Source: Clostridia bacterium (GTDB lineage Bacteria; Bacillota_A; Clostridia; Christensenellales; Aristaeellaceae). Taken from it: DNA of 8,656 nucleotides. Positions 1-8,656 of this stretch are shown one piece after another (the stretch's first letter is position 1; every line of letters starts with the position of its first letter). Below the pieces are notes generated by a model. The model was not told where the DNA came from. It saw only the letters and a list, made by a program, of their open reading frames with translations, and made no database searches. Location: contig JAGBAU010000013.1 in assembly GCA_017938785.1 (NCBI GenBank), positions 1 through 8,656 on the forward strand. The letters run 5' to 3'. The position numbers and the translations under genes are program-made.

Positions 1-490
1 ATACATGCAGGAAACTGTCATACTGGATGTTGAACGCAGAAATATTCACGTAATCCAGCATGGCGGTATGGAACTGCAGGTCTTCCCTCCAGAATTCGCG
101 CAGATCCGGTTCTTTCTGGCTGGTCAACAATTCACACTGGCGGTCCAGGGCGGCCTGCATCTTTGCGATGACGGCGCGCGCAGCTCTTTTCTTGTGATCT
201 CTGGCAATCAGGGCGGCGCAATAGCTGTCCGCCATCATGCGGATGTGATAGGCTTCGTTTACATCTGCTTCCGTGGGCTTATGCAGCTTAAAACCACGGT
301 TGGGCAGGATATCGATATAGCGCTCCCGGTTCAGACGGGTCAGAGCCTCGCGCATGGGCGTTCTGGAAATGGAGAGCTGTTCCGCCATGCGGGTTTCGCT
401 GTAAATTGTTTCAAAATCCAATTTGCGGCTGTAGATCATATCCCGCAGATAATTATATGCAAGGTCCTGTAAGGGTTTATACTCAGCCAT
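1..490 (-). CDS. GntR-family (FCD/FadR-type) transcriptional regulator, C-terminus off the window
   Basis: A likely ligand-responsive repressor of the divergent transporter and enzyme genes. 163 residues are visible; the rest runs off the left edge. Residues about 8-70 form the GntR winged helix: SISRTPMREAL at 40-50 is the recognition-helix signature and the wing ends in PNRGFKL. From about residue 73 an FCD effector domain begins, with Arg84 in the first helix and a DLQFH segment (Asp137, His141) matching the first two metal ligands of metal-binding FCD domains. The remaining histidine ligands lie off the window. The start at 490 is preferred over an in-frame ATG at 508 because GGAAAG lies about 10 bases upstream of it and because the predicted transcript would begin only about 8 bases before 508. 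FCD regulators commonly bind sugar acids or other carboxylates, which fits the neighbouring genes. Family assignment is firm; the effector is unknown. Confidence 0.93.
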   Translation of the reverse strand, partial: MAEYKPLQDLAYNYLRDMIYSRKLDFETIYSETRMAEQLSISRTPMREALTRLNRERYIDILPNRGFKLHKPTEADVNEAYHIRMMADSYCAALIARDHKKRAARAVIAKMQAALDRQCELLTSQKEPDLREFWREDLQFHTAMLDYVNISAFNIQYDSFLHV

Positions 491-522
491 TTTCAACGCA
501 CTTTCCATTTAATATTCATTCG

Positions 523-551
523 ATTATAGCATATTTGTGGTGCAAGAACAA
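523..551 (-). promoter_or_regulatory. Predicted extended -10 promoter of the GntR regulator
   Basis: Read on the minus strand, a perfect TATAAT (positions 528-523) is preceded by TG one base upstream, giving an extended -10 (TGCTATAAT). A weak -35, TTGTTC at 551-546, sits at the ideal 17-base spacing. Transcription would start near 516, leaving a leader of about 26 bases before the ATG at 490. No copy of the 764-785 palindrome overlaps this promoter, so autoregulation through that exact sequence is not evident. Confidence 0.68.
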
Positions 552-566
552 GGAGATATAGTGCAA

Positions 567-615
567 AACTATAGCTAAAGTTGACATGGTCAATGTTAAA
601 TCGCGACAAATGTCA
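567..615. repeat. Cluster of short inverted repeats upstream of the promoters
   Basis: Three small dyads lie side by side. 567-582 is a 16-base palindrome with one mismatched pair (AACTATAGCTAAAGTT). 581-593 is TTGAC-ATG-GTCAA, with 5-base arms. 605-614 is GACA-AA-TGTC. In addition TGACAT at 582-587 pairs with ATGTCA at 610-615. They lie upstream of the regulator -35 and well upstream of the tctC promoter, where an activator or second regulator could bind. Short dyads arise easily in AT-rich DNA, so function is uncertain. Confidence 0.35.
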
Positions 616-724
616 GATTTGATTGTAAATAAAGGCGAGTTAATTGAATGTAGAAAATGAACTAAACAAAATGGATTAAATTATAGCACAGAAGGATAAA
701 TTTTCAAAACAGGTAATTTTGAGA

Positions 725-754
725 TTGACAAACAGGTTAAACTCATATTATAGT
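725..754 (+). promoter_or_regulatory. Predicted sigma-A promoter of the tctC operon
   Basis: A perfect -35 TTGACA at 725-730 is followed after 18 bases by TATAGT at 749-754, five of six matches to the -10 consensus. Transcription should begin near 761-763, giving a leader of about 109 bases. The 22-bp palindrome begins immediately at the predicted start, which is where a repressor would block initiation or early elongation. Confidence 0.7.
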
Positions 755-763
755 ATAGATGTA

Positions 764-785
764 AATTGTATACCGGTATACAATT
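764..785. promoter_or_regulatory. Perfect 22-bp palindromic operator, probable GntR/FCD binding site
   Basis: The half-site AATTGTATACC is followed directly by its exact reverse complement, so all 11 base pairs match around the centre at 774/775. The core contains TTGTATAC and its mirror GTATACAA, in keeping with the GTATAC-type sites seen for several FCD-type GntR regulators. It covers roughly +2 to +24 of the predicted tctC transcript. With a GntR gene divergently next door, the simplest reading is repression relieved by the imported substrate or a catabolite. In RNA the same sequence could form a 5'-end hairpin that protects the message. Confidence 0.75.
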
Positions 786-827
786 GTATGACAGATATAG
801 GTTACAGAGGTTATCTTTTTCTGAATC

Positions 828-850
828 CAGGCGCAAAGGCATTGCGCTTG
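828..850 (+). promoter_or_regulatory. Leader hairpin just upstream of the tctC ribosome binding site
   Basis: GCGCAA at 831-836 pairs with TTGCGC at 842-847 across the loop AGGCA. The stem extends outward by a G-U, an A-U and a C-G pair to 828/850, giving nine pairs. It ends six bases before AAGGAGG at 856. No T-run follows, so it is not a terminator. It may stabilise the mRNA or affect ribosome access. No known riboswitch class is recognisable in the leader. Confidence 0.4.
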
Positions 851-870
851 AAAATAAGGAGGATAAAACC

Positions 871-1911
871 ATGAAGAAACTGTTTGCTCTGGTACTGGCT
901 CTGGCTCTGGTACTCAGCTGCTCTGCAATGGCAGCAATCTGGCCCGATGGCACCCCCACCGTCTATATCGGCTACGGCGCCGGCGGCGGAACCGATACTG
1001 CTGTACGTCCTGTGATTGCTGAAATGGCAAAGTATCTGGGCGAAACCATCAACTGCTCTAACATGGAAGGCGCAAACTCCGCAGTTGCTTGCGACTATGT
1101 TCTGGGCGAGGCTCACAACGGCTACAACCTGTTTGCAACCGGCACCGGCGGATTCTCTTCCTATCCGGTATATGCCTATTCCGATTCCAGCTGGCAGGAT
1201 TGGATCTCCCTGCATCCGTATTCCGGCCCTGCAGTTGTTTATGCCAATGTTGATTCCGGCATCAAGACCACTGCAGACCTGCTGGCCCATCTGGCAGAAG
1301 GCAACAACTTCGGCGTAGGCGCATACGGCAACGGCCCGCACACCCAGTTCGAAGCCATCATGGCTGCTGCTGGCCAGGCTGCTCCCACCTATTCCCTGTT
1401 CGGCTCCTGCGGCGACACCGGCGTTGCCGTAATCGCTGGCGACGTTAAGGTTGGCGCATCCTCCCTGTCCGCAGTTATCGATTACATCAACTCCGGCATG
1501 GTAACCCCCATCTTCGTTACCTGCGCAGATCCCTTCGAGTTCGCAACCGGCACCTGCCCCTCTGTTGTGACCGAGGTTCCCGGCACCGACGCCATCCCCA
1601 ACCTGAACGAAACCTGGCCCATCATGATCCCGCGCGATACCCCCGCTGAGATCGTTGACGCTCTGGTCGAAGCCTTCAATGCCGCTATCGAAACCGAGGC
1701 TGTTAAGGAATTCGCTGCTTCCAAGGGCTACACCATGATCGGCCTCACCGGCGAAGAAGCTGATAAGTTCATGTCTTACTCCATCTCCGGCTACAGCTGG
1801 ACCCTGTACAATGCCGGCCTGGGCGAGGGCAACCCCGCTGACTACGGCATCCCGACCCTCGAAGAGTACGATTGGGAAACCCTGAAGCTGACCTGTGACG
1901 CTTACAAGTAA
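871..1911 (+). CDS. tctC: TctC/Bug-type solute-binding protein of a tripartite tricarboxylate transporter
   Basis: The extracytoplasmic receptor that captures the substrate, usually an organic acid, and delivers it to TctAB. 346 residues, slightly longer than the usual 300-330. Residues 1-22 are a signal peptide: MKK, a Leu/Ala/Val core, then SCSAMAA. It could be cut by signal peptidase I after AMA, or lipidated at Cys17, though Leu15 makes a weak lipobox. The mature protein has the family hallmarks: the glycine-rich ligand loop GAGGGTD at 36-42, ENMEGA-like NMEGANSAVACDY at 64-76, and HNGYNLF at 82-88 equivalent to the usual DGYTL. The ATG at 871 is chosen because AAGGAGG lies eight bases upstream and the signal peptide follows at once; an upstream in-frame ATG at 766 lies in the operator. 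It is first in the operon and is separated from tctB by hairpins. Substrate cannot be read from sequence; context favours a sugar acid. Confidence 0.92.
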   Translation: MKKLFALVLALALVLSCSAMAAIWPDGTPTVYIGYGAGGGTDTAVRPVIAEMAKYLGETINCSNMEGANSAVACDYVLGEAHNGYNLFATGTGGFSSYPVYAYSDSSWQDWISLHPYSGPAVVYANVDSGIKTTADLLAHLAEGNNFGVGAYGNGPHTQFEAIMAAAGQAAPTYSLFGSCGDTGVAVIAGDVKVGASSLSAVIDYINSGMVTPIFVTCADPFEFATGTCPSVVTEVPGTDAIPNLNETWPIMIPRDTPAEIVDALVEAFNAAIETEAVKEFAASKGYTMIGLTGEEADKFMSYSISGYSWTLYNAGLGEGNPADYGIPTLEEYDWETLKLTCDAYK

Positions 1912-1941
1912 GAATCGCATCTAACAGCGCTGCAAAGGAAA

Positions 1942-1963
1942 AATCGGAATTCGAATTCTGATT
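1942..1963 (+). repeat. Near-perfect palindrome after tctC (mRNA hairpin)
   Basis: Two abutting GAATTC copies (1947-1952 and 1953-1958) form a 12-base palindrome. Flanking AATCG and TGATT extend it to 22 bases, with a single G-U pair. It lies 30 bases after the tctC stop and directly before the terminator stem at 1977. No T-run follows, so it is more likely a 3'-end stabilising hairpin for the tctC message than a terminator. Confidence 0.5.
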
Positions 1964-1976
1964 AACTGATTTTCCG

Positions 1977-2016
1977 GGGCATCGCGGACGCGACCCGTCT
2001 GCGATGCCCTCTTTTT
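1977..2016 (+). terminator. Intrinsic terminator/attenuator between tctC and tctB
   Basis: A 14-pair stem (arms 1977-1990 and 1996-2009, one G-U pair at 1986/2000) closes on the five-base loop CGACC and is followed by TCTTTTT at 2010-2016. This is a strong Rho-independent terminator by form. No promoter is visible between it and tctB at 2042, so tctBA probably depend on partial read-through. That would make far more binding protein than membrane subunits, a usual need in binding-protein-dependent transport. Confidence 0.85.
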
Positions 2017-2041
2017 AAATCAAACCAAGAGGTGACTGAAT

Positions 2042-2533
2042 ATGGATGGACAGAAGAAAAGGAATGCTGCCAAGGATTTTGCATCCGGCATCGCTCTTGT
2101 CCTGTTTGGTATTTATATTATCATTGAATCGCTGAACATGAAGGTCTATAACACCTTCATCGATGCGCCCGGTTTCTTCCCGCTGATCATCGGCGTCGTG
2201 CTCACGGTTCTGGGTGCGATTCTGACCATTATCGGCTACAAAACCGGCGGTGTTGCGGAACTGAAGGAAGTGCTCACGGGCAAGTTCCTGAAGGCATTCG
2301 TAAAGGATGATTCCACCATCCGCGTACTGATCCTGCTGGCAATGATGGTGGTTTATATGTACATCCTCGTGGGCCGCATCCATTTCATTCTGGCTACGAC
2401 CATTTACCTGACCGCCAATTTCCTCTATCTGAAGGCGCTCAAGAAATGGTGGGTATCCATTATCGTGGCAGTGGTGGCCTCTGTTGTGATTTTCTATGCA
2501 TTCCAGCTTGGCCTGGGCATTACCATGCCGTAA
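2042..2533 (+). CDS. tctB: TctB small membrane subunit of the tripartite tricarboxylate transporter
   Basis: The small, poorly conserved integral membrane partner of TctA. 163 residues, within the usual 140-180. Four hydrophobic stretches are visible at about 13-30, 43-66, 92-130 (long enough for two passes) and 136-161. The segment APGFFP at 42-47 corresponds to the conserved GFFP motif after the first helix of TctB proteins. The N-terminus is basic and cytoplasmic-looking (KKRNAAK). AAGAGGTGA at 2027-2035 provides the ribosome binding site. It lies 20 bases before tctA, with tctC upstream of a terminator, the classic C-B-A order. Family assignment rests on position, topology and the GFFP motif, since TctB sequences diverge widely. 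Confidence 0.88.
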   Translation: MDGQKKRNAAKDFASGIALVLFGIYIIIESLNMKVYNTFIDAPGFFPLIIGVVLTVLGAILTIIGYKTGGVAELKEVLTGKFLKAFVKDDSTIRVLILLAMMVVYMYILVGRIHFILATTIYLTANFLYLKALKKWWVSIIVAVVASVVIFYAFQLGLGITMP

Positions 2534-2553
2534 CATCGAAGGAGGATACATAA

Positions 2554-4071
2554 ATGAGTGAATTCGTAAAGCAGCTTGGCTTCCTTGTGGATGCCTTGGG
2601 CGGCGTATTCCAGGGTTGGAACCTCCTGGTGATCGCCGGCGCAGTATTGCTGGGCCTGATCGTTGGCGCCATTCCCGGCCTCACCGGCACCATGGCCCTG
2701 GCTCTGCTGATCAACATTACCTACACCATGGAAACCTCGTCCGCCGTCGCCTTCATGCTGGGCGTATACGTCGGCGCCGTTTCCGGCGGTCTCTTCTCCG
2801 CCATCATGCTCAACATTCCCGGCACGCCCAACGCGGCGGCCACAGCCTTGGACGGCTACCCATTGGCCAAGCAGGGCAAGGGCGGCAAGGCCCTGTTCGG
2901 CGGCGTTCTCACCAGCTGCCTGGGCACCCTGCTCTCCGTTGTGCTGATGATGGTCGCTACCCCCTTCCTGTACAAGATCGCCCTGAAGTTCGGCAAGTGG
3001 GAGCTGTTCCTGCTGGCCATCTTCGGCATCACCATCTGCGGTAACCTGTCCGTTGACGCTTCTCCCCTCAAGGGCTGGATCGGCGGCTTCCTGGGCTTCT
3101 TCTGTGCCATGGTGGGCGTGGACGCCATCTACAACGGCCCCCGCTTCATCTGGACCGGCAGCCTGACCTCCGGTATCACCCTGATCCCTGCCCTGATCGG
3201 TCTCTTCGGCATCGCCGAGGTTCTGTGCGTGCTGATGGATAAAACGGATTTCGTGGTCAATAAGGATATGGGCTCCATATTCCCCAACAAGCAGGAGTTG
3301 AAGGGCTTGCTCAAGCCCACCGTGCGATCCGCTTTGATCGGCTGCGGCATCGGCGCCATCCCCGGCGCGGGCGAGGATATCGCCGCCTGGATGTCCTACT
3401 CCGTGGGTAAGTCCAGCAGCAAGGATAAGGCCAACTTCGGCAAGGGCAGCTTCGAAGGCCTGTCCTGCTCCGAAACCGCCAACAATGCCTGCATTCCCGG
3501 CGCGATGATTCCCATGCTCACCCTGGCCATTCCGGGCTCCACCCAGGCCGCTATGTTCCTGGCTGCCCTGAACCTGCATGGCATCCAGCCTGGTCCGCTG
3601 CTCACCGTAAAGACCCCCAGCTTCATGTACACCGTCGGCCTTACCCTGGCCGTGGGCGCCATCATCATGGTTCTGCTGGCCCTGATTCTTACCAAGCCCA
3701 TGGTTAAGATCCTGCAGATTAACCGCAAGGTTCTGATGCCCATCATCGTTGTATTTACCGTTGTGGGTGCCTATGCTTCCCGTTCCAGCATGTTTGATAT
3801 CAAGCTGGCGCTGGTATTCGGCGTGATCGGCTTCATTCTCAGAAAACTCAATTTCCCGCTGGCACCCGTTACCCTGGGCCTGATTCTGGGCGGCACCGCC
3901 GACTCCAGCTTCCGTATGGCGCTTACCCAGGGCAAGGGCTCCATCATTCCGCTGCTGTCCCGTCCTCTGGGTGATATCCTGATCCTGGTTGTGCTGTACT
4001 CCCTGGTATCCGGCGCCATCAAGACCATCAAGAGCACCAAGGCGGAACTTGCAGGTAAGAGCCTGAACTGA
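2554..4071 (+). CDS. tctA: TctA large membrane subunit of the tripartite tricarboxylate transporter
   Basis: The main permease, expected to couple uptake of the TctC-delivered substrate to an ion gradient. 505 residues, the normal full length, with many hydrophobic helices. Both halves of the family's internal repeat are visible. The first has GAIPGLTG at 38-45, then a segment at 72-108 carrying YVGAVSGGLFSAI, NIPGTP and DGYPLAKQG. The second has GAIPGAGEDIAAWMSY at 268-283, followed by SETANNA at 307-313 and LAIPGS at 325-330. AAGGAGG at 2539-2545 sits eight bases before the ATG. Thirty bases separate it from the first SDR, so enzymes and transporter probably share a transcript. TTT systems are best known from Proteobacteria; here one is wired to sugar-acid enzymes in what looks like a Clostridia genome. 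Confidence 0.95.
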   Translation: MSEFVKQLGFLVDALGGVFQGWNLLVIAGAVLLGLIVGAIPGLTGTMALALLINITYTMETSSAVAFMLGVYVGAVSGGLFSAIMLNIPGTPNAAATALDGYPLAKQGKGGKALFGGVLTSCLGTLLSVVLMMVATPFLYKIALKFGKWELFLLAIFGITICGNLSVDASPLKGWIGGFLGFFCAMVGVDAIYNGPRFIWTGSLTSGITLIPALIGLFGIAEVLCVLMDKTDFVVNKDMGSIFPNKQELKGLLKPTVRSALIGCGIGAIPGAGEDIAAWMSYSVGKSSSKDKANFGKGSFEGLSCSETANNACIPGAMIPMLTLAIPGSTQAAMFLAALNLHGIQPGPLLTVKTPSFMYTVGLTLAVGAIIMVLLALILTKPMVKILQINRKVLMPIIVVFTVVGAYASRSSMFDIKLALVFGVIGFILRKLNFPLAPVTLGLILGGTADSSFRMALTQGKGSIIPLLSRPLGDILILVVLYSLVSGAIKTIKSTKAELAGKSLN

Positions 4072-4101
4072 TTCTTTTATCCGCAAGAAAGAAGGCAAAG
4101 C

Positions 4102-4854
4102 ATGAACGTTAAAGATAAAGTCATTATGATCACCGGCGCAGGCGGCGGCCTGGGCAGTGAAATGGCGCGCCTGCTTTCCAGCAAGGGCGCAATCGTGTAC
4201 ATCCTGGACCTGAACGAAGAATTGGGCAAGGGCGTTGCGGATGAAATCTGCGCCGCAGGCGGCCAGGCCTACTTCTTCAAGGCGGATGTGACCAATGAAG
4301 AGAGCTGGCAGGCGGCTGTTAATTACGCCGTTGAAACCAGCGGCAAGCTGGACGTACTAGTGAACAACGCCGGCATCAATATCCGCAAGCCCGTTGAAGA
4401 GATGAACATCGACGAATGGAGCACCATGATGAAGGTGAATACCGGCAGCGTGTTCCTCGGCTGCAAGTATGCAATTCCCGTCATGCGCAAGCAGGGCGGC
4501 GGCTGCATCATCAACACCAGCAGCGTCTGCGGCCTGATCGGTCACAAGTACACCCCCGAAGCCTACACCGCCACCAAGGGCGCAGTTACGCTTCTGACCA
4601 AGGCCATTGCATCCCGCTATGCCAAGGACGGCATCCGCTGCAATTCCATTCATCCCAGCACCGTCGATACTCCGCTCGTGGCGGAAAAACTGAAGGATCC
4701 CCATTTTGCAAGTGAGCGCCTGGGCGAGGTTCCGCTGGGCCGTCTGGCCTCTTCTGCGGATGTTGCCAACGCAGTTCTGTATCTCGCCAGTGAGGAAGCC
4801 AGCTTTATCAACGGCGTTGCACTGCCGGTGGACGGCGGCGTGACCTGCTATTAA
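4102..4854 (+). CDS. Classical short-chain dehydrogenase/reductase (SDR), first of two
   Basis: A cytoplasmic NAD(P)-dependent oxidoreductase of 250 residues, typical for the family. The Rossmann glycine motif TGAGGGLG is at 11-18. Asp36 at the end of the second strand suggests NAD(H) over NADP(H). NNAG is at 88-91 and structural Asn at 113. The catalytic set is Ser141, Tyr155 and Lys159 in YTATK. The C-terminus has the usual INGVALPVDGG. Substrate specificity cannot be read directly. Being first among enzymes after the transporter and just before the transketolase pair, it may oxidise a hydroxyl of the imported sugar acid (penultimate-carbon oxidation would create a transketolase donor); this is inference. 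A weak AAAGAAGG at 4088-4095 serves as ribosome binding site. It is clearly distinct from the second SDR at 7635, so this is not a recent duplication. Confidence 0.9.
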   Translation: MNVKDKVIMITGAGGGLGSEMARLLSSKGAIVYILDLNEELGKGVADEICAAGGQAYFFKADVTNEESWQAAVNYAVETSGKLDVLVNNAGINIRKPVEEMNIDEWSTMMKVNTGSVFLGCKYAIPVMRKQGGGCIINTSSVCGLIGHKYTPEAYTATKGAVTLLTKAIASRYAKDGIRCNSIHPSTVDTPLVAEKLKDPHFASERLGEVPLGRLASSADVANAVLYLASEEASFINGVALPVDGGVTCY

Positions 4855-4858
4855 GGAG
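4853..4858 (+). promoter_or_regulatory. Ribosome binding site that sets the transketolase N-subunit start
   Basis: AAGGAG at 4853-4858 overlaps the TAA stop of the first SDR and ends at the first base of an in-frame GTG at 4858. Eight bases of spacing place the ATG at 4867 as the real start; GTG 4858 would have no spacing. Stop codon and ribosome site overlap, so translation of the two genes is probably coupled. Confidence 0.8.
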
Positions 4859-4866
4859 TGACGCAT

Positions 4867-5703
4867 ATGTATACTGCAAATGAAATTCGTGAACTCAAGC
4901 AGATTGCTGCAACCCTGCGCGGCAACCTGATCGAGATGATCCCTCCGGGAAAGGTGGGTCATCTGGGCGGCAGCAGCTCCATCGTGGATGTGGTCGCCGC
5001 ACTGTACTTCAAGCACATGAAGGTATTTGCCGATCCCAAGGATCCCCGCCGCGACCGCTGCGTGTTCTCCAAGGGCCATGCGGTTCTGGCACAGTATGCC
5101 GCTTTTGCTGAGTTGAACTACTTCGACCGTGAAGAGCTCAAGCACGTCAAGACCCTGGACGGCACCCTGCAGGGCCATCCGGATATGGACCACACCCCGG
5201 GCATCGAGGCCGTTACCGGTTCCCTGGGCCAGGGCCTGAGCGTTTGCCTGGGTATGGCCTTCGGCCTGAAGGTGGACAAGAGCGAAAGCCGCGTCTACTG
5301 TGTTGTAGGCGACGGCGAACTGGACGAGGGCCAGATCTGGGAGGCCGCCATGGCTGCAGCCGCCCATAAGGTGGACAACCTCTGCGCCATCGTGGACCGC
5401 AACCAGGTGCAGGCCACCGATACCATCGCCAATGTTCTGCCCAATGAGCAGCTCGCCGAGAAGTGGGCCGCATTCGGCTGGAACGTGATCGAAATCGACG
5501 GCCATGATATGGCACAGATCCTCGAAGCATTGGATGCTTCCCGCGAATGTGCCGGCAAACCCACCGTCATCATCGCCAACACCGTCAAGGGCAAGGGCTT
5601 CCCCTTTGCCGAGGGCAAGGCTGCATTCCACAATGCTGCCCTGAACGATGAACAGTATGCTCTCTGCCTTGAACTGGTTGAGCAGATGAAGAAGGAGGCA
5701 TAA
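4867..5703 (+). CDS. Transketolase, N-terminal (thiamine diphosphate pyrophosphate-binding) subunit
   Basis: One half of a two-gene transketolase; it holds the pyrophosphate end of thiamine diphosphate and Mg2+. 278 residues, usual for split N-subunits. Motifs in order: GHLGG at 31-35, SKGHA at 68-72, GHP at 103-105, TGSLGQGL at 117-124 and the ThDP signature GDGELDEGQIWEA at 148-160, ending at Asn179 in DRNQ. KGKGFPF follows at 241-247. All expected cofactor residues seem present. The partner follows two bases after the stop. Split transketolases occur in many anaerobes either as housekeeping pentose-phosphate enzymes or inside dedicated catabolic operons, such as the apulose-4-phosphate (AptAB) and sulfoquinovose (SqwGH) pathways. 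Placement between a transporter and sugar-acid dehydrogenases favours a dedicated role here. Confidence 0.93.
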   Translation: MYTANEIRELKQIAATLRGNLIEMIPPGKVGHLGGSSSIVDVVAALYFKHMKVFADPKDPRRDRCVFSKGHAVLAQYAAFAELNYFDREELKHVKTLDGTLQGHPDMDHTPGIEAVTGSLGQGLSVCLGMAFGLKVDKSESRVYCVVGDGELDEGQIWEAAMAAAAHKVDNLCAIVDRNQVQATDTIANVLPNEQLAEKWAAFGWNVIEIDGHDMAQILEALDASRECAGKPTVIIANTVKGKGFPFAEGKAAFHNAALNDEQYALCLELVEQMKKEA

Positions 5704-5705
5704 CC

Positions 5706-6638
5706 ATGAAGAATATGCGTACCGCCTATGGCCAGGCTCTGCTGGAGCTGGGCCGCAGCAATGAAAAGGTTGTAGCCCTGGAGGCCGACCTGGGCAAGAG
5801 CACCATGTCCAACATGTTCGGCGGCGAGTTCCCGGAGCGCTACTTCCAGATGGGCATCGCCGAAGCCAACATGATTTCTGCAGCCGCAGGTCTGGCGCTG
5901 ACCGATCACGTTTCTTATGCAAGCACCTTTGCCGTGTTTGCCACCGGCCGCCCCTACGATCAGATCAGATCCTCCGTCTGCATCCCCCGACTGAACGTGA
6001 AGATCTGCGGCTCTTCTGCAGGCCTTTCCGACTTCGGTGACGGCAAGACCCATCAGTCCGTGGATGATATCACCCTGATGCGCGTGCTGCCCAACATGAA
6101 GGTATTTTCTCCCGCAGACGCCAACGAAGCCTATCACATCACCAAGGCCATGGCCGATATCCTCGGCCCCTGCTACATCCGCGTGAACCGCAATGATGTG
6201 CCGGAAGTTACCGCCGAGGATGAACCCTTTGTATACGGCAAGGTGAAGCTGATGAAGGACGGCAAGGACGCCGTTGTATTCGCCACCGGCTTCATGGTAT
6301 ACCAGGCACTGGAGGCTGCAAAGGCACTGGAGGCCGAGGGCATCTCCCTGAAGGTTGTGAATGTGAACACCATCAAGCCCCTGGATGCGGAAGGCGTTTG
6401 CGCCCATGCCGCAGGCATGAAGGCTGCAATCACCGTTGAGGAAGCCAGCATCTACGGCGGCCTGGGCAGCGCAGTATGCGAAACCCTGTGCGCCGGCCCC
6501 GCTGAGAGCCGCATCCCCGTAAAGGTCATGGGCATTCAGGATTGCTTCGGCACCTCCGCCCAGAAGTATGACGAGCTGCTGGTGGAATACGGCCTGACCG
6601 CCAAGGACATCGCCGAAACCGTGAAGGCAGCTCTCTAA
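5706..6638 (+). CDS. Transketolase, C-terminal (pyrimidine-binding and C-terminal domain) subunit
   Basis: The second transketolase half; it supplies the glutamate that activates thiamine and much of the sugar pocket. 310 residues, normal for split C-subunits. Glu53 in MGIAEANM is the activating glutamate. Arg5, Ser32 (DLGKS) and Arg162 (VNRND) match phosphate-binding positions of E. coli and yeast transketolase. GDGKTHQSVDDI at 111-122 gives the catalytic-site His116. NTIKPLD at 221-227 and EEASIYGGLGSAV at 245-257 mark the C-terminal domain. One oddity: the position that in classical enzymes is a phosphate-contacting histidine, 12 residues before His116, is Ser104 here. AAGGAGG at 5692-5698, inside the end of the N-subunit gene, drives translation, so the halves are made together. 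Donor and acceptor cannot be fixed from sequence. Confidence 0.93.
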   Translation: MKNMRTAYGQALLELGRSNEKVVALEADLGKSTMSNMFGGEFPERYFQMGIAEANMISAAAGLALTDHVSYASTFAVFATGRPYDQIRSSVCIPRLNVKICGSSAGLSDFGDGKTHQSVDDITLMRVLPNMKVFSPADANEAYHITKAMADILGPCYIRVNRNDVPEVTAEDEPFVYGKVKLMKDGKDAVVFATGFMVYQALEAAKALEAEGISLKVVNVNTIKPLDAEGVCAHAAGMKAAITVEEASIYGGLGSAVCETLCAGPAESRIPVKVMGIQDCFGTSAQKYDELLVEYGLTAKDIAETVKAAL

Positions 6639-6666
6639 ACAACAGATCGAAAGGATTGAAATCGCT

Positions 6667-7554
6667 ATGAAAATCGGATTTATCGGATTGGGCATCATGG
6701 GCAAGCCCATGGCAAAGAACCTGCTGAAGGCCGGCTATGATGTGGTTGTAGCCGACAAGTTTGCTCCGGCAAATGTGGCTGACGTAGTTGCATGCGGCGC
6801 AAAGGAAGGCGCATCCAACATGGACGTCGGTTCCCAGGCAGATATCCTGATCACCATGGTTCCCAATTCTCCCCACGTAAAGGAAGCCCTGTTCGGTGAG
6901 GACGGCGCAGCCAAGACCCTGAAGAAAGGCGCCATCGTTCTGGATTGCTCCTCCATCAGCCCTGTGGCATCCCGCGAAATCTATGCACAGCTCCAGGAGC
7001 TGGGCATCGAAATGCTGGACTGCCCGGTATCCGGCGGCGAACCCAAGGCCATCGACGGCACCCTGGCCTTCATGGTGGGCGGCAAGCAGGAAATCTTTGA
7101 TCAGTGCAAGCCGATCCTCGAAAAGATGGGCGCATCCGTTGTGCTTTGCGGCGATATCGGCGCAGGCAACGTGACCAAGCTGTGCAACCAGATCGTGGTA
7201 GCCGTGAATATTGCCGCAGTTGCAGAAGCCCTGACCCTGGGCCAGCTGGCAGGCGTAGAGCCGGAGAAGATCTTCAACGCCATCAAGGGCGGCCTGGCCG
7301 GATCCACCGTAATGAACGCCAAGGCACCGATGATGATGGACCAGAACTTCAAGCCGGGCTTCCGCATTGACCTGCACATCAAGGACCTGAACAATGCCGT
7401 GGACACCGCCAGAGAAGTGGATTCTCCGATCCCGCTGACCCAGTCCATGCTGGAAATGATGAAGATTCTGCACCGCGATGGCGACGGCAGCTGCGATCAC
7501 AGCGCACTGCTGAAGTACTATCAGAAGCTGACCGGCGAGATTCTGCATCACTAA
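6667..7554 (+). CDS. garR: Tartronate semialdehyde reductase (2-hydroxy-3-oxopropionate reductase), beta-hydroxyacid dehydrogenase family
   Basis: Predicted to reduce tartronate semialdehyde to D-glycerate with NAD(P)H in the cytoplasm. 295 residues, the normal length of GarR/GlxR. The Rossmann motif GLGIMGKPM is at 7-15; the substrate loop VSGGEPKAIDGTL at 121-133 and GAGNVTKLCNQ at 165-175 (catalytic Lys171, Asn174) match the GarR subgroup closely, as does GFRIDLHIKD at 231-240. Similarity to E. coli GarR runs the whole length, including NSPHVKEA and GGLAGSTV, which favours this activity over 3-hydroxyisobutyrate dehydrogenase. The usual suppliers of its substrate, a keto-deoxyglucarate aldolase or glyoxylate carboligase, are not in the window; the transketolase directly upstream is the only C-C cleaving enzyme. 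The ribosome site AAAGGA at 6650-6655 is rather distant (11 bases). It ends the main operon before a terminator. Confidence 0.9.
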   Translation: MKIGFIGLGIMGKPMAKNLLKAGYDVVVADKFAPANVADVVACGAKEGASNMDVGSQADILITMVPNSPHVKEALFGEDGAAKTLKKGAIVLDCSSISPVASREIYAQLQELGIEMLDCPVSGGEPKAIDGTLAFMVGGKQEIFDQCKPILEKMGASVVLCGDIGAGNVTKLCNQIVVAVNIAAVAEALTLGQLAGVEPEKIFNAIKGGLAGSTVMNAKAPMMMDQNFKPGFRIDLHIKDLNNAVDTAREVDSPIPLTQSMLEMMKILHRDGDGSCDHSALLKYYQKLTGEILHH

Positions 7555-7565
7555 TCACCAAACGA

Positions 7566-7603
7566 ATGGAGCCGGGGACAGATATGCCCCTGGCTCCGTT
7601 TTT
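7566..7603 (+). terminator. Intrinsic terminator after garR
   Basis: GGAGCC at 7568-7573 pairs with GGCTCC at 7592-7597. GGGG at 7574-7577 continues the stem with CCCC at 7587-7590, leaving T7591 as a bulge or a G-U pair. The loop is about nine bases. The stem is followed by G and TTTTT at 7599-7603. It marks the likely end of the main transcript. No promoter is recognisable in the 31 bases before the next gene, so the downstream pair may depend on read-through or an unseen start. Confidence 0.8.
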
Positions 7604-7634
7604 CAAGGAACTGTCGGTTTACTGAGGTAAGCAA

Positions 7635-8399
7635 ATGAACAGCATATTTTCACTTCAGGGCCGGGTCGCGCTGGTAACGGGCAGCGGCAAGGGCCTGGGA
7701 AACGTAATTGCCCGCGGCCTTGCCGAGGCGGGCGCACGGGTAGTGCTCAACGATGTGGATGAAAAAACCCTGGCCGCCGCTTACGAACAGTTCAGGGCCG
7801 AGGGTCATGATGTATATGCCGCCGCCTTTGATATCACCAATGAAGAGCAGGTTGTACAGGTCATAGAAACCGTTGAGCGCGAATTCGGCCCCATTGACAT
7901 CCTGGTCAACAATGCAGGCATCCATAAGCGCGACCTGCTGGTGGATATGCCTGCGGAAAATTGGCGAAAGGTCATCGACGTGAACCTGAACGGCGCGTTC
8001 ATCGTGGGCCGGGCGGTGGCCCGGGGGATGATTGAACGCAGGCACGGCAAGATCATCAACATTACGTCCATCAACGCACAGATGGTGCGTCCCAACATCG
8101 GCAATTACTGCGCGGCCAAGGGCGGCATCGTCACCCTCACCAAATCCATGGCCACGGAGTGGGGTCCCTACAACATCAATGTCAACGCCATCGGTCCGGG
8201 TTATTTTCTGACCGATCTCACCCGTCCGCTCTCCGAGGATGCACAGTTCGACGCCTGGGTCAAGAGCGAAGTTCCCCTCAGAAGATGGGGTAATCCCGAG
8301 GATCTGGTGGGTATTTCGGTGCTGCTGGCGTCCGGGGCATCTGATTTTATCAGCGGACAGACCATCTATGTGGACGGCGGCTGGCAGGCCTGCCTGTAA
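7635..8399 (+). CDS. SDR resembling gluconate 5-dehydrogenase (IdnO/Gno type)
   Basis: A 254-residue cytoplasmic SDR. TGSGKGLG is at 15-22, NNAG at 92-95, Asn117, then the catalytic set Ser145, Tyr158 and Lys162. Asp40 after the second strand is compatible with NAD(H). Resemblance to IdnO is seen at the N-terminus (FSL-G), in GPIDILVNNAGI at 85-96, GPGYFLTDLTR at 187-197 and in the substrate-side helix and tail (AW then P, RRWGNPEDLVG at 216-226, ASDFISG at 235-241). IdnO-type enzymes interconvert a sugar acid and its penultimate-carbon ketone (gluconate and 5-ketogluconate). The exact substrate could be another aldonate, or a related KduD-type substrate. GAGGTAA at 7624-7630 is its ribosome site. 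It follows a terminator and precedes a sugar kinase by 26 bases, forming a second unit. Confidence 0.85.
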   Translation: MNSIFSLQGRVALVTGSGKGLGNVIARGLAEAGARVVLNDVDEKTLAAAYEQFRAEGHDVYAAAFDITNEEQVVQVIETVEREFGPIDILVNNAGIHKRDLLVDMPAENWRKVIDVNLNGAFIVGRAVARGMIERRHGKIINITSINAQMVRPNIGNYCAAKGGIVTLTKSMATEWGPYNINVNAIGPGYFLTDLTRPLSEDAQFDAWVKSEVPLRRWGNPEDLVGISVLLASGASDFISGQTIYVDGGWQACL

Positions 8400-8425
8400 A
8401 GAGATAGACACAGGAGGAGAATCTT

Positions 8426-8656
8426 ATGTCCAAGAAATACCAGCTCATCACGGCCAGCTCCATGGGCGTGCGCATCACCCCTATGGACCGCCAGCCGGTG
8501 GGCATCGGCAACCATTACATCATGCATTCCACCAGCGCAGAATCCAATGTGCTGAATGTGGCTGCATCCCTGGGCATGTGCACCAAGGTGCTCACCCGCT
8601 TTGTGAAGGATAGCCCCATCGCAGCCTTCATCAAGGGCGACCTGCGCCGCAGGAAC
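8426..8656 (+). CDS. PfkB-family sugar kinase, 2-keto-3-deoxygluconate kinase-like, N-terminal part only
   Basis: The first 77 residues of a kinase that continues past the right edge. AGGAGG at 8412-8417 with eight bases of spacing fixes the ATG at 8426. The order LITASSMGVRITPM (first strand), a lid-like segment, SAESNVLNVAASLG at 37-50, then TKVLTRFVKDSPIAAFIKGDLRR follows the N-terminal plan of PfkB kinases, especially KDG kinases. The usual substrate signature GG-A/G-x-x-N is altered: the two glycines appear as Thr36-Ser37, while Asn41 is kept. The ATP-binding and catalytic Asp motifs lie off the window. Paired with an IdnO-like SDR it probably phosphorylates a keto or keto-deoxy sugar acid, but another hexose, pentose or glycerate-like substrate is possible. 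Confidence 0.75.
   Translation, partial: MSKKYQLITASSMGVRITPMDRQPVGIGNHYIMHSTSAESNVLNVAASLGMCTKVLTRFVKDSPIAAFIKGDLRRRN

Follow-up and report, generated by a model that had tools for sequence, protein, structure and literature searches.

What does a bacterium do with a transporter for organic acids, a two-subunit transketolase and a tartronate semialdehyde reductase that are encoded side by side? The question is raised by a stretch of 8,656 nucleotides from a Clostridia bacterium (NCBI GenBank assembly GCA_017938785.1, contig JAGBAU010000013.1, positions 1 to 8,656 of the forward strand), which was analysed at its full length and is called the window here. On balance, the cluster probably serves the breakdown of an aldonic (sugar) acid by a redox-neutral route, which would proceed through a dedicated transketolase and the reductase GarR. 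Both the substrate and its chain length are predicted from the sequences; a 4-keto-pentonate fits best as the transketolase donor, with a 5-keto-hexonate as its main rival. The genes concerned form one co-directional putative operon on the plus strand:

871..1911, + strand: TctC, solute-binding protein of a tripartite tricarboxylate transporter (TTT); PF03401, 36.2 bits (cut-off 27)
2042..2533, + strand: TctB, small membrane subunit; PF07331, 66.9 bits
2554..4071, + strand: TctA, large membrane subunit; PF01970, 438.7 bits
4102..4854, + strand: SDR1, short-chain dehydrogenase (SDR), proposed to oxidise an aldonate next to its CH2OH end
4858..5703, + strand: TKN, N-terminal half of a split transketolase, binding thiamine diphosphate (ThDP); PF00456, 161.7 bits
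5706..6638, + strand: TKC, C-terminal half of the split transketolase; PF02779/PF02780
6667..7554, + strand: GarR, tartronate semialdehyde (2-hydroxy-3-oxopropionate) reductase; two equivalog cut-offs exceeded
7635..8399, + strand: SDR2, an SDR resembling gluconate 5-dehydrogenase and hexonate dehydrogenase; NF005488, 300.3 bits, under the cut-off of 369
8426..8656, + strand: opening 77 codons of a sugar(-acid) kinase of the PfkB family, which continues past the window end; the related locus L001 has a full PfkB with 87% identity

From TctC to GarR, the intergenic gaps measure, in order, 130, 20, 30, 3, 2 and 28 bp. The TTT assignment follows from the Pfam models for TctA, TctB and TctC, which all score above their cut-offs, and the transketolase is a split one, with TKN and TKC as separate genes, the ThDP-binding Pfam domain, and both catalytic histidines, His26 and His261. 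No Pfam model is matched by the PfkB fragment by itself; the full PfkB of L001 is similar to 2-keto-3-deoxygluconate kinase. An organic-acid transporter, an SDR, both transketolase halves and a GarR-type reductase had been placed between positions 871 and 7554 by an initial annotation of this DNA, and all of them are present, co-directional and close-packed, although the cluster extends beyond 7554 with SDR2 and the PfkB kinase.

In the proposed pathway, the TTT system, whose family is given by sequence and whose ligand is predicted, would import the sugar acid. A dehydrogenase—SDR1 and/or SDR2, and in relatives an SDR or a zinc-dependent medium-chain dehydrogenase/reductase (MDR)—would then oxidise the carbon beside the CH2OH group, giving HOCH2-CO-CHOH-...-COO-. 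From this putative donor, the split transketolase would transfer the two-carbon ketol to an acceptor aldose phosphate, for instance glyceraldehyde-3-phosphate, which would yield xylulose-5-phosphate and a shortened aldehyde acid. With a 4-keto-pentonate as donor, C5 and C4 would leave as the ketol, and C3 to C1 would remain as tartronate semialdehyde, which GarR would reduce to D-glycerate, presumably with the NADH of the first step. A glycerate kinase, as adjoins GarR in some relatives, would pass this product into glycolysis. The route is expected to be redox-neutral because the dehydrogenase would make one NADH and GarR would spend one, a balance that would suit fermenters.

The first line of evidence is the conservation of the gene set, which the initial annotation had proposed to survey: in 34 of the 39 loci of the family, GarR is encoded no more than 6.5 kb from the transketolase, compared to none of 30 other split-transketolase loci, which is not chance (Fisher p ~1e-14, with relatedness ignored). 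The family set comprises L001–L009, L011 and L087–L115, with G514, whose match lies at a contig end, outside it; the comparison set comprises L012–L037 and L116–L119, of which 8/30 have less than 4 kb on one side. A single TKC scan of genome contigs provided 37 loci, where L001–L009 and L011 stand at 66–84% identity and the rest at no more than 49%. Kinship searches, whose genome sets overlap in part, detected the family in 2/297 genomes of the order of G001 (E≤1e-95), 10/200 genomes of its family (E≤1e-88), 18/180 genomes of the order of G007 (Synergistaceae), where a truncated copy in G010 falls just below the threshold, and 5/30 genomes of the order of G011. Gene orders of relatives were taken from protein matches, and neighbours were counted within the same 6.5 kb. 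The ten closest loci are contigs of metagenome-assembled genomes (MAGs) and many others lie on short contigs, which leaves any single absence with little weight. Among the five family loci lacking GarR, L011 and L098 are located at contig ends and L093 has its transketolase at the contig start, the remaining two being L092 and L110.

The other functions recur in more than one form. A dehydrogenase gene neighbours the transketolase in 32/39 family loci, an SDR in 25 and a zinc-MDR in 7, but never both (2/30 each for SDR and MDR among the other loci). TctA accompanies 22 of the 39 (0/30 of the others), ABC permeases 6 (1/30), and a tripartite ATP-independent periplasmic (TRAP) transporter 3 (0/30). 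In the order of G007, the usual arrangement is GntR, TKN, TKC, GarR, TctC, TctB and TctA, followed by an SDR or MDR, whereas in L113 an SDR1 homologue (74%) is inserted between TKC and GarR. The persistence of the dehydrogenase step, while its protein family and the type of transporter vary, argues that selection acts on the reactions rather than the linkage being due to chance. In L006 (5154–6042), GarR is matched as two overlapping pieces, which reflect either a frameshift or an error in the assembly. Genes for apiosidase-like and other glycoside hydrolases neighbour the clusters of L001, L004, L005, L113 and L115; no single form of them recurs, and no conclusion on the substrate was drawn from them.

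The cluster is one of uncultured gut and rumen bacteria. L001–L006, L008 and L009 come from MAGs labelled Clostridia, Clostridiales or Eubacteriales, L007 from a Synergistaceae MAG and L011 from a Fretibacterium MAG, with goat jejunum or roe deer rumen as the source of L004, L007 and L011. In L007 the genes are arranged as in the clostridial loci, and in the tree its TKC falls in with the window clade instead of the loci of its own order, which suggests either a transfer between phyla or a binning error.

The second line of evidence comes from the transketolase itself, whose closest solved chains are 6yak (TKN) and 6yaj (TKC), from the split enzyme of Carboxydothermus. Residues are numbered after E. 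coli TktA, the alignment reference, onto which the phosphate-motif positions 358, 385, 434, 461 and 520 were mapped in this analysis. The position of E. coli His461 is occupied by Ser in 39/39 aligned TKC rows (window included; L011 is too short to align). In the window this is Ser104 (codon 6015–6017, placed by hand), followed by D-F-G-D. The complete phosphate motif reads RSFSR in 38/38 complete family rows, plus one partial row, and in none of 33 other split transketolases (duplicates removed), which have His461 in 26 cases and otherwise RSPSR (4), RSFYR (2) or RKIGK (1). According to the accessible part of PMC11659671, the motif is RSFHR in ordinary and RAFDR in sulfofructose transketolases, and the lack of an intact RSFHR motif in the window and all complete rows excludes the family from the ordinary pentose-phosphate class as defined by that motif. 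Asp469 and His473 are kept in 39/39 family rows, which all hold D-[FY]-x-D at 466–469. In TKN, an Asn directly follows the catalytic His261 in 38/38 family rows but in 0/30 others, and Pro27 is replaced by Leu, Val or Ile in 38/38, yet also in 6/30 others. A maximum-likelihood tree of 77 TKC rows places the 39 family rows on one branch, with support 100/98.

The same exchange at position 461 has been introduced by engineers: as far as the accessible text of PMC12016104 goes, the TktA variant R358I/H461S/R520Q exhibits 55.3% enhanced activity on 5-keto-D-gluconate. The shared H461S change is thus an independent pointer to a keto-aldonate donor, although the natural enzyme retains both arginines. 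It is somewhat more likely than not that clostridial and Synergistaceae-type anaerobes possess a natural transketolase family specific for keto-aldonates, which carries the engineers' H461S change and operates in a redox-neutral pathway for pentonates. The cluster transketolase also looks dedicated, and a sole housekeeping role is unlikely, because all ten genomes G001–G010 hold at least one further Transketolase_N gene (≥125 bits) outside the cluster.

Other lineages of split transketolases appeared in the same comparison. Genomes G001–G004 hold a second split enzyme (L118 and L119; also L054–L057) with the motif RSPSR and Asp469 replaced by Leu. In L118, its neighbours include a gene resembling sulfoquinovose isomerase (114.7 bits, cut-off 700), one resembling glycerol kinase, and a sugar ABC transporter, and AptA is 43% identical to the TKN of this locus versus 37% to that of the window. 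L025 and L035 encode split transketolases with Tyr at 461 (RSFYR); in L025, the neighbours are zinc-MDR dehydrogenases, a 2-hydroxyacid dehydrogenase and an HMG-CoA-lyase-like gene, possibly representing another dedicated transketolase route.

The third line of evidence concerns the product. GarR from the window exceeds two NCBIfam equivalog cut-offs for tartronate semialdehyde reductase (452.9 against 397 for NF008592 and 392.1 against 340.75 for TIGR01505), while it stays below that of a third model of the same name, NF011633; it is 61% identical to E. coli GarR, and its closest solved chain is 1vpd. Together with those of ten relatives, 11/11 scanned GarRs linked to the transketolase pass TIGR01505 and 10/11 pass NF008592 (10/10 and 9/10 for the relatives), whereas the threonate and sulfolactaldehyde models are passed by none of the ten. 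GarR is therefore strongly predicted to be a tartronate semialdehyde reductase. A nearby glycerate kinase, which the initial annotation had suggested looking for, does exist in relatives: in L002, a homologue of MOFRL glycerate 2-kinase directly follows GarR (234.9 bits for a model cut-off of 550; PF05161 above cut-off), a 64% homologue of it adjoins the cluster of L009 on the opposite strand, and in L088 a glycerate kinase of the PF02595 type, truncated where the contig ends and 49% identical to E. coli GarK, directly follows GarR. All 40 searched genomes with the transketolase family encode a glycerate kinase, of the MOFRL type in 35 and of the PF02595 type in the other 5. Within the order of G007, it is found in 18/18 genomes with the transketolase and 105/162 of the others, which is consistent with the pathway and confounded by descent.

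Homologues of the other E. coli sources of tartronate semialdehyde—GarL, Gcl and Hyi—were found in 0/40 sequences (the window and the 39 loci, E 1e-3). Because of the GarR match, the glycerate kinases and this lack of GarL, Gcl and Hyi homologues, the sequences support D-glycerate as the product and a C3 aldehyde acid as made by the transketolase. Hydroxypyruvate, an alternative donor named by the initial annotation, was set aside, with a Hyi homologue in 0/40 sequences, other sources of hydroxypyruvate being conceivable.

The dehydrogenases are less specific. The initial annotation took the SDR within its range to be IdnO-like, which does not hold specifically: of 25 models shown, SDR1 passes just the broad subfamily NF005559 'glucose 1-dehydrogenase' (242.8, cut-off 215), and it reaches 169.8 with the gluconate 5-dehydrogenase model NF006070 (cut-off 279). 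An SDR1 homologue (65–82% identity) lies beside the transketolase in 15/39 relatives (L001–L009, L011, L089–L092 and L113). SDR2 falls under the cut-offs of three gluconate 5-dehydrogenase models (300.3/369 for NF005488, 282.9/408 for NF005983 and 253.4/279 for NF006070), a resemblance only, and its closest solved chain is 4g81, 'Putative hexonate dehydrogenase'. The scanned MDRs reach no cut-off; their highest scores are with the models for threonine 3-dehydrogenase or inosose dehydrogenase, and L-idonate 5-dehydrogenase comes lower down.

Several observations weigh against the pentonate pathway, or restrict it to part of the family. Since the loci were selected by transketolase similarity, the linkage counts describe this transketolase family, within the limit set by short flanks. 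In L092 and L110, the absence of GarR looks real, as their contigs are long enough to reveal it, and neither an SDR nor an MDR is found in seven of the 39 loci (L088, L093, L095, L098, L107, L109 and L112), some of them contig ends; L095 holds other dehydrogenases. It is ambiguous whether SDR1 and/or SDR2 would act first, and three SDRs of other relatives match no NCBIfam model at 1e-65. Just 3/39 loci encode a glycerate kinase within the cluster or next to it. Arg358, Ser385 and Arg520 are retained in all complete family rows, whereas both arginines were altered in the engineered variant described in the accessible part of PMC12016104. Ser461 is shared with another lineage (RSPSR, 4/33), whose flanked loci L118 and L119 lack GarR, and D-F-A-D with 2/33 other transketolases. 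Finally, some relatives carry genes beyond the simple scheme, namely the transaldolase-like genes, the PfkB–Gnd pair, and the DUF1537 kinase with PdxA2. SDR2, PfkB and Gnd occur together in L001 and L003, and PfkB with Gnd in L002, which points to a hexonate. A DUF1537 kinase and PdxA2-like genes lie behind the transketolase and GarR in L009 (3030–5352), and a PdxA2-like gene follows GarR in L095 (5395–6435) with three other genes in between, hinting at C4 acids in part of the family. The transketolase family may thus serve more than one sugar acid.

The core logic of the initial annotation—a ketol acid from which transketolase takes two carbons, leaving a remainder that GarR converts to D-glycerate—is nevertheless borne out in part by the conserved set, the altered phosphate site, the GarR match and the glycerate kinases. 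Its statement that aldolase, dehydratase and isomerase are missing is correct for the window but not for some relatives: a transaldolase-family gene precedes TctC in L001, L003 and L007, a dihydroxy-acid-dehydratase-like gene lies on the other strand in L007, and a xylose isomerase gene follows GarR in L087. Among the aldonate lengths, a 4-keto-pentonate is favoured because it is the one that needs no extra steps to accommodate the GarR match and the glycerate kinases. Stereochemistry, assigned by hand, is not decisive because tartronate semialdehyde is able to enolise at C2; the usual D-threo arrangement of transketolase donors is present in D-arabinonate and L-xylonate after oxidation at C4 and, among hexonates, in 5-keto-D-gluconate and D-fructuronate.

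The main competitor, to which we give a modest chance, is a hexonate version of the pathway, where SDR2 or SDR1 would form a 5-keto-hexonate (5-keto-D-gluconate or of the fructuronate type), the transketolase would leave a C4 tetruronate, and the GarR homologue would reduce it to a tetronate. In L001–L003, SDR2, PfkB and Gnd would add a second branch, from 5-keto-gluconate through gluconate and 6-phosphogluconate to ribulose-5-phosphate. This fits the resemblance of SDR2 to gluconate and hexonate dehydrogenases, the genes for a DUF1537 kinase and PdxA2 after GarR in L009 and for PdxA2 in L095, and the accessible parts of PMC12016104 and PMC7970118, where an engineered transketolase acts on 5-keto-D-gluconate and a wild-type one is proposed to do so. 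It also fits Gnd, which is encoded in 3/39 loci and passes TIGR00873 (cut-off 426.7) in L001 (779.3) and L002 (757.1): zwf was found in none of the three genomes of L001, L002 and L003, which suggests that the cluster Gnd acts on 6-phosphogluconate derived from gluconate, but MAG completeness is uncertain and this absence is weak. However, the 11 scanned GarRs all match the reductase of C3 tartronate semialdehyde and stay well below the L-threonate dehydrogenase cut-off, the kinases directly after GarR in L002 and L088 are glycerate and not tetronate kinases, and PdxA2 occurs in just 2/39 loci.

It is improbable that an ordinary pentose-phosphate transketolase ended up by chance in a sugar-acid operon, where it would rearrange pentose phosphates from the imported acid. 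Such a role would be in line with the retention of most residues of the phosphate motif and of the sampled catalytic residues, and with Gnd and a transaldolase-like gene, each present in 3/39 relatives; the loss of His461 in every family row, when 26/33 other split transketolases keep it, the single clade tied to GarR, and the other transketolase genes in 10/10 genomes tested speak against it. Very improbable is a route for part of the family in which the transaldolase-like protein of L001, L003 and L007 would take three carbons from a 5-keto-hexonate to leave tartronate semialdehyde, with the transketolase handling pentonates or pentose phosphates. It would parallel the bifurcated transketolase/transaldolase sulfoquinovose pathway described in the accessible part of PMC11659671, and the L001 protein does match TAL_FSA (113.8 bits), with homologues in the other two loci. 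Nevertheless, the gene is limited to 3/39 loci and absent from the window, and its product has low similarity to known transaldolases (best NCBIfam for L001 73.7 bits, with a cut-off of 367; best PDB E 6.6e-11).

The DNA upstream of TctC holds three further features:

2..508, - strand: GntR-family regulator with an FCD domain, divergent and cut by the window start; PF00392 above cut-off, FCD 23.9 against 24.3 (truncated, just under)
725..754, + strand: sigma-70-like promoter TTGACA-18-TATAGT, 11/12 consensus; 4 such sites in the region against 1.9 expected, consensus evidence only
764..785, no strand: perfect 22-bp palindrome AATTGTATACCGGTATACAATT, 85 bp before the TctC start and behind the sigma-70-like site

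The palindrome is the sole perfect one of at least 14 bp in the window, and it resembles the sites of uronate regulators. ACCGGTATACCGGT is found upstream of the operon in four of eight upstream regions (L001, L003, L004 and L008), but not in those of L005, L007, L089 and L091. A GntR gene neighbours the transketolase in 25/39 relatives versus 0/30 other loci, and the palindrome is likely the operator of the GntR-FCD regulator. An Rfam scan of the window gave zero matches, and therefore no riboswitch to name the ligand. A terminator-like stem of 15 pairs lies between TctC and TctB (1976–2010; 2 found in the region against 1.8 expected), and may allow excess synthesis of the binding protein TctC.

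If true, the pathway would do for a carboxylate what the sulfo-transketolase and sulfo-transaldolase routes do for sulfoquinovose, breaking down a sugar acid without dehydratase, aldolase or prior phosphorylation, and its transketolase would be a natural enzyme for a donor class now being engineered for tartaric acid production. It offers testable predictions on donor, product and redox balance, as well as a sequence signature by which genomes of gut, rumen and Synergistaceae-type bacteria could be screened for this pathway. Titles and the beginnings of abstracts revealed no published account of a transketolase–GarR cluster, a weak negative with most subscription papers beyond reach.

Among known systems, the gar operon of E. 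coli (GarP, GarL, GarR and GarK) makes tartronate semialdehyde with the aldolase GarL. The window cluster would share with it the step from GarR to D-glycerate and, in relatives, shares a glycerate kinase beside GarR, whereas a transketolase stands in the place of GarL. The L-idonate/gluconate pathway consists of IdnO, gluconokinase and Gnd; SDR2 resembles its gluconate 5-dehydrogenase, and PfkB and Gnd follow in L001 and L003, but here transketolase and GarR are added, and the kinase belongs to the PfkB family.

Closer in logic is the sulfo-transketolase SqwGH from Clostridium sp. MSTE9 and Faecalicatena, a split enzyme that, according to the accessible parts of PMC11659671 and PMC12890257, takes two carbons off a phosphate-free anionic ketose. 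Like SqwGH, the window family would be a dedicated split transketolase with an altered phosphate motif, whose short aldehyde acid is processed onward; unlike it, the family has RSFSR in place of RAFDR, a dehydrogenase instead of aldose–ketose isomerases, and GarR as the reductase instead of SqwF, while the transporter of the window is a TTT system. RAFDR is present in 0/39 rows, which separates the family from SqwGH as judged by the published motif (PMC11659671, accessible part) rather than by an SqwGH sequence; the sulfoquinovose isomerase SqvD and the isomerase SqwI are not among the annotated neighbours of the loci, where part of the neighbours is annotated. The D-apiose pathway enzyme of E. 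coli SE15 (ECSF_RS02710/RS02715, labelled AptA/AptB in the accessible part of PMC13001218) is likewise a dedicated split transketolase in a carbohydrate operon with SDR genes, but its cluster holds an FGGY kinase and no GarR, and the residues flanking the motif differ (YGPL, HH; the AptB alignment is uncertain there). AptB and AptA are 33.8% and 36.9% identical to their window counterparts, compared to the 44–49% TKC identity, by another method, to the Clostridia split transketolases L026 and L028–L033, which sets the family apart from AptAB. The engineered TktA_M (R358I/H461S/R520Q) shares H461S and a keto-aldonate donor, predicted for the window family; as far as the accessible text of PMC12016104 goes, it is a laboratory variant made for synthesis, with a proposed step from 5-keto-D-gluconate to tartaric semialdehyde, whereas the window family is natural, retains both Arg358 and Arg520, and occurs together with GarR. 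By sequence, the window transketolase thus appears to be neither SqwGH nor AptAB, while by its logic it would stand nearest to the sulfo-transketolase and the bifurcated sulfo-transketolase/transaldolase pathways.

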